Assembly (NCBI GenBank): GCA_902566725.1
Contig: CACFJZ010000001.1
Coordinates: forward strand, 1-64,000
DNA: 64,000 bases
Source: an uncultured marine group I thaumarchaeote
Lineage (GTDB): Archaea > Thermoproteota > Nitrososphaeria > Nitrososphaerales > Nitrosopumilaceae
Reading direction: 5' to 3'
Under the pieces are notes generated by a model that saw only the letters and a program-made list of their open reading frames with translations, searched no databases and was not told where the DNA came from. This document shows, piece after piece, positions 32,303 through 36,479 of this stretch (its first letter is position 1; every line of letters begins with the position of its first letter). The translations under genes were made by a program, and so were the position numbers.

Positions 32303-32841
32303 TTTTGAAAACAGAATTATTAGAAAATCGTTTGATTGTATGGAATACAGATGATTCTAAAAAATTATTTAGTGAAGGATATTATGGAAAACCAATCGGC
32401 ATTCCAAAACCAAAATTAAATGAAATCAATGTTCCATTAGTATTAGATTTGATTGAAGGGTATTATTTAATGACAAAATCTAAAATTCAGATTTATAAAA
32501 ATAAAAAGAAAGTTACTTTAAAGAAAATGTTTCAGATATGCTTAGAACAGCATCATAATTTTGAAAAAAAATTTCAAGTTTACAAAGATTTTCGGGATAA
32601 AGGATATGTTGTTAATCCAGGAATAAAATTTGGATGTGATTTTGCAGTTTATGAAAAAGGTCCAGGCATTGATCATGCTCCATTTTTAGTACAAGTGTAC
32701 AATAGAAATGAAAACATGACGTCAACAGACATTGTGTTGGCAGGAAGATTGGCTACAAGTGTTAAAAAACAGTTTATTTTAGCTATACCAACTGGAAAAG
32801 AAAAAGTAGAGTATTTGGCGCTTGATTGGTGGAAAGCCTAG
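32254..32841 (+). CDS. endA: tRNA-splicing endonuclease (start likely downstream near 32302-32310)
   Basis: DKGYVVNPGIKFGCDFAVYEKGPGIDHAPFLVQV...RLATSVKKQFILAI; Tyr/His/Lys triad context present. Confidence 0.92.
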   Translation: MSRSFRFIHSFGIEFIILKTELLENRLIVWNTDDSKKLFSEGYYGKPIGIPKPKLNEINVPLVLDLIEGYYLMTKSKIQIYKNKKKVTLKKMFQICLEQHHNFEKKFQVYKDFRDKGYVVNPGIKFGCDFAVYEKGPGIDHAPFLVQVYNRNENMTSTDIVLAGRLATSVKKQFILAIPTGKEKVEYLALDWWKA

Positions 32842-33209
32842 AAAGTTTTGATGTGGCCAGCTATTTTATCAAATATTTCAAATTGTTCTTTTGATACCTT
32901 GAAATCAAAGCTGTTTTTCCATTTACCATAAATTCTGACACCTTTTGTGGTAGGATCAATCGTGATGGTGGCATCGTCAACAGATTGTTGTGCAATGAGT
33001 TCGTTTAATACAGAATCATCATTTAGAGTATCTGCAATTTTGCCTCCTTGCCATTCAACTTTTGTTACTTTTTTTGAACGAAAATGTCCCGAAGTTGTTA
33101 AAACAGTTCTTGCAGTATAATCAATAGGAACGTCAGTTTGTTTTCTTACAATGAAATGAGCCTGATAGCGGTCTTGTGCGCCCCATGGAAGTGGATTTGG
33201 ATCTTGCAT
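32838..33209 (-). CDS. Hypothetical protein
   Basis: 123-aa ORF. Confidence 0.65.
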   Translation of the reverse strand: MQDPNPLPWGAQDRYQAHFIVRKQTDVPIDYTARTVLTTSGHFRSKKVTKVEWQGGKIADTLNDDSVLNELIAQQSVDDATITIDPTTKGVRIYGKWKNSFDFKVSKEQFEIFDKIAGHIKTF

Positions 33210-33535: not shown

Positions 33536-35284
33536 TTGAAATTTGAAAATAAAGTTGTGCTAATCACAGGAAGTGGAACGGGCATAGGAATGACGGTGGC
33601 CAAGAAATTTGTGGGAGAGGGGGCTAGCGTGATCATTCTAGGAAGACGTAGAGAGCCACTCGAAGATACATCAAAAATGCTTGAAGAAATTATTAACGAA
33701 AAGAAGTCAAATGGATTTGTAAAAATATTCTCAGGAGTAGATGTGAGTGATGAAAATGCCGTTACAGAAATGTTTGAGACGCTAAAAAATGAGGGCGTAA
33801 ACGTTGACGTAGTAGTAAATAATGCAGGAGTTTCAGGTCCTGTCACTTGCTTTTCACATGCACCATTAGACGATTTCAGAAGTACAGTAGACATTCACCT
33901 TACAGGAACATTTTGGACATCAGTTCAAGCACTAAAAGTTATGAAAGAAGGAGCAAAAATAATTACAATATCAACATTCTTTGCAGAAGAAAGACCACTT
34001 GAGCAAAGACCGTATAGATTCAGAGGACCATACACAGCATCACAAGGTGCAAAGAACAGATTAGTTGAAGCAATGTCTTGGGAGCTAACTGAAAAAGGAA
34101 TAGTGTCTATCGGAACAAATCCAGGACCAGTACATTCGGATAGAATTTACAAGACAGTATATCCAAAAGCAGCATCAGAATTCCTAAGAGTTAGTGGTTT
34201 TGAAGATTTAGTACCAGCAGAAGTCGAAGCGGCAAACAAAGAGATTGTAGGATTATTAGGAGAAGATGATGAGACAATTAAAAATGGAATTAAAGCTGCT
34301 GCAGAAAAATTAGGAAAAAAAGAAGAGACATTTACAAATTTGTTAAACAAGGTTCAAAGTATTGCAGAAAAGATTCAAAAGAATACATCAACAATGATTG
34401 CAGATCAACAATTCTTGTCACAAGATCAAGTGGCAACCACAGTGCTAACCCTTGCAGATGATGATCAGGCAAAAATTCTAAATGGAAAAATTATTCCGGG
34501 AGATAGAGTATTTTATCCAGTAAGATCACACATTACATCAATTCCCGAGACTGTAAAACAATTTGATTATTCATCAAAGATTGCCGTTTTAACAATTGAT
34601 GCTACTGACGAAGAAGATGCAAAGAAAGCTGAAGAAATAGCCAACAACGTTCAAGCAAATGGTGGACAAGCAATTTGTTTTATTTCAGACAAATGTTCAA
34701 AAGAAATTCAAGAGTCATTAGGAAATAAATTCCATTCACATGTAATTGACTTTTCAAACAATGAAGAAATTACAAAATGGTTTAACACTGCAAAATCAAA
34801 AGGAGATATCGAGGTGTTTATTCACATTACAGGAAAAGTTCCATCAATTACAAAATTAACAGAATTGTCCAGAAGTGAGTGGGACGAATTAACAAACAAA
34901 TTCATTAACATTCCAGCTACGGTTAGTCAAAACGCAATGGGCGTTTTTGTACCTAACGGTTCAGAAGACCCACGACTTTTCAAGGAGGCTAAAGGACGTA
35001 TTGTTATAATTGGTCCAGACCTACCATATGGAAAAAAGATTGGAGGAAACGAGAGAGCAAAAATTGAGGTTTTCAGAGGCGCATTAAGACCATTTGCAAC
35101 AACAATTAATCAAGAATTAAGTGACGTATTGAAATCAAATGTTAGAGCATTCCTAGTGTTAGCAGGAACCGTTGATGGAAAAGAACCAAACAATGCAAGA
35201 ATTACAGATGCGGTTAACTATTTGATATCTGAAGATTCAAAATCAAGCGCAGAAGTAATTTTCTGTCCAGATGAATCAAGATAA
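33536..35284 (+). CDS. Tandem short-chain dehydrogenase/reductase (Chloroflexus MCR-half-like architecture)
   Basis: VLITGSGTGIGMTVAKKFVGEGASVIILGRR; NNAGVSG; GPVHSDRI; followed by a second degenerate Rossmann-like domain (KIAVLTIDATDEEDAKKAEEIANN...GRIVIIGPDLPYG). TTG start. Confidence 0.82.
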   Translation: MKFENKVVLITGSGTGIGMTVAKKFVGEGASVIILGRRREPLEDTSKMLEEIINEKKSNGFVKIFSGVDVSDENAVTEMFETLKNEGVNVDVVVNNAGVSGPVTCFSHAPLDDFRSTVDIHLTGTFWTSVQALKVMKEGAKIITISTFFAEERPLEQRPYRFRGPYTASQGAKNRLVEAMSWELTEKGIVSIGTNPGPVHSDRIYKTVYPKAASEFLRVSGFEDLVPAEVEAANKEIVGLLGEDDETIKNGIKAAAEKLGKKEETFTNLLNKVQSIAEKIQKNTSTMIADQQFLSQDQVATTVLTLADDDQAKILNGKIIPGDRVFYPVRSHITSIPETVKQFDYSSKIAVLTIDATDEEDAKKAEEIANNVQANGGQAICFISDKCSKEIQESLGNKFHSHVIDFSNNEEITKWFNTAKSKGDIEVFIHITGKVPSITKLTELSRSEWDELTNKFINIPATVSQNAMGVFVPNGSEDPRLFKEAKGRIVIIGPDLPYGKKIGGNERAKIEVFRGALRPFATTINQELSDVLKSNVRAFLVLAGTVDGKEPNNARITDAVNYLISEDSKSSAEVIFCPDESR

Positions 35285-35287
35285 AAG

Positions 35288-35749
35288 ATGGAAAAATTTA
35301 CAACCTTAAAAATTGGAGATTCGTTTGTTTCTACCACAAGTATATCAAAAAAAGAATTAGACGAATATCTTGGTTTTTCCAGGATAAAAAATGCCATGTT
35401 TGAGATAGATTCAGGAAAAGACGATGACAGAGTGATTTCAGGAAGAGCAATAATTTCAAGAATGGAAGGAGAGTTTACAAGATTAAGGCAGATTTATGGA
35501 AATTATATTGTACTTTATGGAATAGATGGAGATTCAGAATGGAAAAATAGACAAACACGCTTTTTGAGACCGCTTTACACTGATCAAGTGATTCGGTTAA
35601 AATTTACAATTTCAGATAAGAGAGACATTGATGACGAATATGGTTTGATTAGTGTCGATTTTGAAGCTACTTTTGAAGATGGAGACTTGGTTCTAACATC
35701 AAAGAAAAATCTCTACAGAATTAAAAAAGAACCCCCATCGAATCGATAA
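35288..35749 (+). CDS. Possible MaoC-like hot-dog fold protein
   Basis: LKIGDSFVSTTSISKKELDEYLGFSR...RFLRPLYTDQVIRLKFTISDKR...VDFEATFEDGDLVLTSKKNLY resembles hot-dog dehydratases without an obvious catalytic D/H pair. Confidence 0.5.
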   Translation: MEKFTTLKIGDSFVSTTSISKKELDEYLGFSRIKNAMFEIDSGKDDDRVISGRAIISRMEGEFTRLRQIYGNYIVLYGIDGDSEWKNRQTRFLRPLYTDQVIRLKFTISDKRDIDDEYGLISVDFEATFEDGDLVLTSKKNLYRIKKEPPSNR

Positions 35750-36479
35750 TTAATTTTACAGCAGCAGCTAAGAGAACAATAGTAACAAGAATCTTTAATT
35801 TTCGTTCTTTGATTTCCAAAGAGAGTCTGGCCCCAAGAATTCCTCCACAAAATGCACCAATTGCTAAGAAAAATGCCTGTAAGTAATCAGGATGACCTAA
35901 TGCAGAGTGAACTAAAAGACCACTTAATGATGCAAACATCAAGATTAACTGTGCAGTAGGCGCAGCTCTTCTCATTGGAATTCCGATTCCAATAACCATC
36001 AAGGGAACAAAGACAATCCCTCCTCCAATTCCAAATAAACTCGAGATGATTCCTGCAAAGAAACTTGCCCCTGCAGAGAAGATCATCATCAACGCGGTTT
36101 TGTTGTAAGGTTTTTCATCTACAGTTCGTTTAAGAAAAATGTATACCGCAGATGCTATCAAAACAAGTGCAAATAAGATTTGAAATGCAGAAGGAGTCAT
36201 AGTATCAGATATGAATGCACCTAAAATTGTACCAGGAATACACATCAATCCAAGTTTTATTCCAATTCCAAATTCAACACGTTTTTGACGTGCATAAGAG
36301 ATAGTTGATGCTACAGAATTACTAAAAGCCGCAAAAAGACTATTACTTGCAGCTAATGCAGGAGGAAACCCAGCAAATGTCATTGCAGGTACTGCAATTA
36401 TTCCACCACCTAATCCTACAATAGAACCCAACACGCCTGCTGCAAATCCAAGTGGTATCAACCATAAATTCTCGTACAT
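35721..36479 (-). CDS. TauE/SafE family sulfite/anion exporter
   Basis: GFAAGVLGSIVGLGGGIIAVPAM and internal repeat GIISSLFGIGGGIVFVPLMV. Confidence 0.92.
   Translation of the reverse strand: MYENLWLIPLGFAAGVLGSIVGLGGGIIAVPAMTFAGFPPALAASNSLFAAFSNSVASTISYARQKRVEFGIGIKLGLMCIPGTILGAFISDTMTPSAFQILFALVLIASAVYIFLKRTVDEKPYNKTALMMIFSAGASFFAGIISSLFGIGGGIVFVPLMVIGIGIPMRRAAPTAQLILMFASLSGLLVHSALGHPDYLQAFFLAIGAFCGGILGARLSLEIKERKLKILVTIVLLAAAVKLIIDSMGVLF

Follow-up and report, generated by a model that had tools for sequence, protein, structure and literature searches.

In Sulfolobales, one enzyme serves both malonyl-CoA and succinyl-CoA reduction; it is of the semialdehyde dehydrogenase type, a family unrelated to the SDRs. 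The bifunctional malonyl-CoA reductases (MCRs) of Chloroflexus and Roseiflexus (8hi4, 8hjw; halves 8hi6, 8aew, 8i6z and 8hi5) are instead SDR proteins of about 1220 residues with four SDR domains and two active sites, each half consisting of a catalytic SDR domain followed by a non-catalytic one. For RfxMCR, the residues named are Thr165, Tyr172, Arg175, Tyr178, Lys182, Ser213 and Arg215 in SDR1 and Ser731, Tyr743, Arg746, Tyr749 and Lys753 in SDR3; a YxxRxxY motif common to both domains binds the malonyl moiety, and mutants of either catalytic triad lost activity (PMC10470521).

Ammonia-oxidizing archaea (AOA), taken as a group, are established users of the 3HP/4HB cycle (PMC8287830, PMC7845616). 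Malonyl-CoA reductase activity was measured in N. maritimus with the gene unidentified (PMC6038301, PMC4510362), and the AOA gene stands without assignment likewise in PMC6964070. The genes for succinyl-CoA reductase (PMC6038301, PMC4510362) and acryloyl-CoA reductase (PMC6038301) are also listed without assignment. In the open literature we found no gene assignment for the AOA malonyl-CoA reductase; one in subscription-only papers is possible.

The tandem SDR gene and its surroundings

The window, i.e., the whole stretch of 64,000 nucleotides analyzed here, stems from a Nitrosopelagicus-like AOA, and its tandem SDR gene is 99% identical to a gene of a Nitrosopelagicus MAG. The gene (33536..35284, forward strand, TTG start, stop included) encodes a candidate malonyl-CoA reductase of 582 residues. 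A previous sequence-only reading had described an SDR of this length with a second, degenerate Rossmann-like domain. We found every motif it quoted (TGSGTGIG at residues 11–18, NNAG at 95–98, ISTFF at 145–149, PYTASQ at 165–170 and NPGPVHSDRI at 195–204), and structure prediction indeed placed a second Rossmann/SDR domain at residues ~346–565.

The first SDR domain, predicted to be the catalytic one, spans 33536..34525 (+; residues 1 to ~330), its border being drawn from the SDR C-terminal segment DRVFYPV, and carries TGSGTGIG, GRR (36–38) and NNAG. It contains the active-site segment (33968..34054, +; residues 145–173), which reads ISTFF...QRPYRFRGPYTASQGAK, and GPVHSDRI (34124..34147, +; residues 197–204). 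Between the active site and the last part of this domain lies a helical insertion (34157..34360, +; ~residues 208–275) whose position seems to resemble that of the MCR alpha10/alpha11 helices or extra domain; it is shorter than the extra domain of MCR-C. The degenerate second domain (34526..35281, +; ~residues 331–582) is presumably non-catalytic and was assigned by its predicted fold. A Pfam search gave no convincing family for this half; adh_short (PF00106) covered residues 6–202 only (1.7e-37). As, in addition, none of the 25 NCBIfam models among the matches listed reached its own cut-off, routine annotation would yield a generic SDR. The frame is nonetheless a real gene, since AOA hold 77 distinct homologs, most with an open frame over the full length.

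Three bases downstream of the SDR stop, a second frame (35288..35749, +; ATG start, 153 aa) encodes the hot-dog protein that had been expected there. It has a MaoC fold, with 4ffu and 1q6w as closest structures. A MaoC-type (R)-hydratase combines the hot-dog fold with a catalytic Asp and His; the 153-aa protein shows the fold, but its alignment contains no invariant His. The suggestion that this gene is the partner of the SDR was not supported. It adjoins the SDR gene only in part of the Nitrosopumilaceae; in Nitrososphaeraceae its copies lie elsewhere or are missing, and it was not found at several Marine Group I loci that keep the SDR (L018–L024, L029). Patchy adjacency and absence from many genomes with a retained SDR rule it out as a general functional partner, and it is probably an incidental, lineage-specific neighbor outside the mechanism. 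The tandem SDR of these loci is itself shorter than that of the window, by ~20 to 50 residues.

Two other neighbors were seen. A TauE-family gene at window positions 35721–36479, convergent with the SDR gene, stays near it in AOA families f1, f2, f3 and f5 and is a more widely conserved neighbor than the hot-dog gene. At 32838–33209, the window encodes a small conserved protein without Pfam or NCBIfam match, which is found near the SDR in many AOA.

Likeness to bacterial malonyl-CoA reductase

In a phmmer search of the PDB, full-length bifunctional MCRs came first (8hi4 at 6e-31, 8hjw at 1.1e-30; next match 2e-19), a lead that arises partly because each full-length MCR offers two matching domains. 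A profile of 32 homologs placed MCR at 7e-46 and the next match at 2.5e-26. By sequence, MCR SDR3 scored slightly higher than SDR1, and for the second domain the profile search returned no significant match to MCR. An AlphaFold structure predicted from 20 aligned homologs showed two Rossmann-like domains at moderate to weak confidence (pLDDT 69, pTM 0.52; below 50 for residues 98–119 and 147–208, active-site region included). With this model, Foldseek placed MCR at every one of ranks 1–22 of the PDB, either whole or as an N- or C-half, with MCR-N 8hi6 first and both domains aligned (E 4e-18 to 8e-15, TM ~0.4). Within the moderate confidence of the model, the protein thus has the architecture of an MCR half, a catalytic SDR plus a non-catalytic SDR. 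It is archaeal and half as long as MCR, and in place of four SDR domains with two active sites it has two domains and one candidate active site. The likeness to one half of Chloroflexus MCR, which the sequence-only reading had drawn from motifs, is hence borne out by sequence and by comparison of the predicted structure with the MCR halves; unrelated SDRs matched less well.

The best non-MCR match, by profile as well as by fold (Foldseek rank 23), was the tandem (3R)-hydroxyacyl-CoA dehydrogenase of yeast peroxisomal MFE-2 (2et6), which likewise has two fused SDR domains at a similar total length. The AOA protein could accordingly belong to some other metabolism, e.g., as an AOA-specific 3-oxoacyl-CoA reductase acting with a hydratase as in MFE-2, and its likeness to MCR would then combine general tandem-SDR likeness with active-site convergence. 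The MaoC-fold gene beside the SDR in Nitrosopumilaceae, a parallel to MFE-2 seen in some AOA, fits this idea, as does an MCR clade that is not robust to masking (see below). We regard it as improbable, given that 2et6 matches more weakly than nearly every MCR structure and that the MaoC-fold protein has no conserved His and is missing from most other AOA. Restriction of the tandem SDR to AOA and invariance of all MCR substrate residues also argue against it.

In a tree of first domains, the AOA proteins grouped with MCR SDR1 and SDR3 (support 99/92) and lay outside the pair formed by these two (98/85), where an undivided relative would be expected. The phylogeny proposed earlier as a check thus favored MCR in the full tree, but the AOA/MCR group dissolved once active-site columns were masked. 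Because of this, because the tree background was small (30 SDRs) and because a single-domain Woeseia SDR scored as well on the MCR profile as the AOA proteins, common descent of the AOA catalytic domain with MCR SDR1/SDR3 is only suggested.

Single-domain SDRs of Zobellella (L118) and Woeseia (L120) carry YPLRTPY and NRSPY, respectively, before a normal Lys; both score near the AOA proteins on the MCR profile and are possible single-domain relatives. A search of 274 genomes from the class to which Zobellella belongs, in which scoring covered the best four candidates of each genome, gave one ordinary single-domain SDR above the threshold. Plasmids gave no match to an MCR SDR3 segment, and IMG/VR contigs yielded distant SDRs only, matching the N-terminal region.

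The active site

By alignment, RfxMCR Thr165, Tyr172, Arg175, Tyr178, Lys182, Ser213 and Arg215 correspond to Thr147, Tyr160, Arg163, Tyr166, Gln170, Ser201 and Arg203. Residue counts along the alignment reproduce the RfxMCR numbering; the gap before YxxRxxY is unequal, so Tyr160 and Arg163 were placed by motif. None of the seven AOA residues varies across 32 diverse AOA sequences, and they stand in a near-unchanging block, QRPYRFRxPYTxxQG(A/S)KNRL ... GPVHSDRIYKTVYP. All MCR residues in contact with malonate semialdehyde (Thr165, Tyr172, Arg175, Tyr178, Ser213, Arg215) therefore have invariant counterparts. The AOA protein shares with MCR the catalytic Thr/Ser, the carboxylate-binding YxxRxxY motif and the GPxxSDRI element, in which Ser201 and Arg203 correspond to the contact Ser and Arg of MCR alpha10. 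Thr147 and GPxxSDRI are closer to SDR1, i.e., MCR-N (Thr165, Ser213, Arg215), than to SDR3 of MCR-C. Only 1 of 31 other SDRs with Tyr-x3-Lys in the loci analyzed combines Tyr at −6 with Arg at −3, which also speaks against an enzyme of unrelated metabolism. The invariant GRR (residues 36–38) suggests NADP(H) as the cofactor.

Among these residues, the AOA protein departs from MCR only at the Lys, with Tyr-x3-Gln-x2-Lys in place of Tyr-x3-Lys. The protein has PF00106, TGxxxGxG and NNAG like a classical SDR, but the catalytic Lys (Lys182 and Lys753 in MCR) is Gln170 in all family members, and a universal Lys173 follows three residues later, at Tyr+7. MCR SDR3 has Lys at Tyr+4 and Gln at +7; in the AOA protein the two are exchanged. 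The Gln had been noticed before, with the comment that catalysis may be altered or lost. It is no private mutation, and its invariance across the family rules out a sequencing error; a decayed gene is ruled out by the extreme conservation of the active site. As Gln170 and Lys173 are both invariant, the site is altered rather than decayed and under strong selection, which retains the first part of the comment and weakens the second.

Tyr-x6-Lys is the spacing of FabI-type enoyl reductases. The invariant Tyr166-x6-Lys173 could thus mark an enoyl-CoA (acryloyl-CoA) reductase, for which a gene is also wanting in AOA (PMC6038301). The chance of this seems very small to us: with TGxGxGIG, the cofactor site has the classical TGxxxGxG motif and not the divergent one of FabI, and no FabI-type structure was among the fold matches listed. 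Invariant Arg163 and Arg203, moreover, suggest a carboxylated substrate, and acryloyl-CoA has no carboxylate.

Distribution

With the specific C-terminal 358 residues as query, the tandem SDR was found in 215 of 300 genomes of the class; these represent 34 of the 69 genera and belong without exception to families f1, f2, f3 and f5. Archaeal AmoA occurred in 201 of the same 300 genomes and, when the tables were compared by hand, in the same 34 genera; among the genomes listed for families f4 and f6–f9 there was neither. Phylum-wide, 39 of 250 genomes matched, all from AOA families, and none outside AOA. Even AOA genomes of 0.8 Mb (g15, 93–95% complete) keep the gene. The tandem SDR is hence present in essentially every AOA and in no other sampled member of the phylum. 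The predicted co-occurrence with archaea that run the 3HP/4HB cycle is exact at genus level, with AmoA as the marker of AOA, and organisms without the cycle did not turn up as carriers. A contig binned as Pelagibacteraceae (L031) codes for the last part of an AOA tandem SDR (70% identity); it is probably a mis-binned archaeal contig.

Candidate genes for malonyl-CoA reduction

PF00171 aldehyde dehydrogenases were absent from G046 (a complete Nitrosopelagicus genome, one contig of 1.23 Mb), G124 and G147, the two of these three besides G046 being of g15; all 14 control genomes and the three remaining AOA genomes examined had them. PF02774, the semialdehyde dehydrogenase family in which we looked for a Sulfolobales-type paralog, had exactly two proteins in each of six genomes checked, and in G046 and G124 these were archaeal Asd and ArgC. 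The AOA protein would thus share with the Sulfolobales enzyme the proposed reaction and cycle step, whereas the AOA genomes sampled carry only two members of the latter's family, typed in two genomes as Asd and ArgC. This leaves few other malonyl-CoA reductase candidates in G046: judging from gene content, neither a Sulfolobales-type paralog nor an aldehyde dehydrogenase would explain the reaction there, unless Asd is bifunctional.

The shortage of rival genes would equally fit a succinyl-CoA reductase, or one enzyme for malonyl-CoA and succinyl-CoA of the kind Sulfolobales possess. Succinyl-CoA reductase, too, is listed without a gene in AOA (PMC6038301, PMC4510362). We give this reading little credence, as the likeness is to MCR, whose carboxylate site is known for a C3 substrate, and nothing favors C4.

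Alternatively, the tandem SDR might act like MCR-N and convert a free semialdehyde, that of malonate or succinate, into the corresponding hydroxy acid, with no CoA thioester involved. Thr147, GPxxSDRI and the first fold match (8hi6) all lie nearer to MCR-N, although SDR3 is slightly ahead of SDR1 by sequence score. For this step, Fe-ADH proteins have to be considered, a family to which we take Nmar_1110 of N. maritimus to belong. G046 has two Fe-ADH matches, one of which is glycerol-1-phosphate dehydrogenase, so that Nitrosopelagicus has a further Fe-ADH at its disposal. Nmar_1110 is already identified as the malonic semialdehyde reductase of N. maritimus (PMC4510362). If the tandem SDR did this work, the thioester step would be left without a gene in a genome lacking aldehyde dehydrogenase. 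We hence consider semialdehyde reduction rather unlikely, one point in its favor being G067 (family f2), which has the SDR and lacks the stronger Fe-ADH match of other AOA. G067 has one weak Fe-ADH match only, of the kind represented in G046 by glycerol-1-phosphate dehydrogenase, and its lineage may be without the usual malonic semialdehyde reductase.

Proposed function

Taken together, we lean, if only just, toward the tandem SDR being a half-size, single-site malonyl-CoA reductase of AOA and a relative of the bacterial bifunctional MCR. Fold likeness, residue conservation, distribution and lack of rival genes are computed results; substrate, cofactor and the roles of Gln170 and Lys173 are what we infer from them. 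NADPH would bind to the first domain, as GRR favors NADP, and Tyr160, Arg163 and Arg203 of the YxxRxxY and SDRI elements would hold the free carboxylate of the substrate. Thr147 and Tyr166 may then polarize the thioester carbonyl, upon which hydride would be delivered and CoA leave. Gln170 and Lys173 might jointly stand in for the usual catalytic Lys, with Lys173, placed one turn later in the helix, holding the nicotinamide ribose.

Against this assignment stand the missing Tyr-x3-Lys, an MCR tree grouping that rests on active-site columns, the weak model, a second domain without significant sequence match to MCR and the proximity of Thr147 and SDRI to MCR-N, which catalyzes semialdehyde reduction. 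Clustering with cycle genes is missing as well: none was recognized in 20 neighborhoods, where most neighbors were clustered rather than individually annotated, which also disposes of an operon with cycle genes there. From the earlier proposal of an SDR and hot-dog pair for the malonyl-CoA and malonate-semialdehyde steps, the main point is strengthened, the SDR being a strong candidate by likeness, residues and AOA distribution, and the pairing is not supported. The wider view is of an AOA malonyl-CoA reductase of the SDR type that is half-size, has a single site with invariant Tyr-x3-Gln-x2-Lys and is related to an undivided ancestor of the two MCR halves; we put it forward tentatively and with more doubt than confidence.

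If this is true, autotrophs would have a third solution for reducing malonyl-CoA, in addition to the bacterial MCR with its four domains and the enzyme of Sulfolobales, and the 3-hydroxypropionate routes of bacteria and thaumarchaea would have an enzyme lineage in common. AOA do much of the dark-ocean primary production via the 3HP/4HB cycle (PMC8287830), and the tandem SDR offers a single, named and conserved candidate for its malonyl-CoA reduction step that can be directly expressed and assayed. Confirmation would complete metabolic models and sets of marker genes at this point, make a compact enzyme with one site available for producing 3-hydroxypropionate and demonstrate that an SDR active site can work without the lysine of Tyr-x3-Lys.
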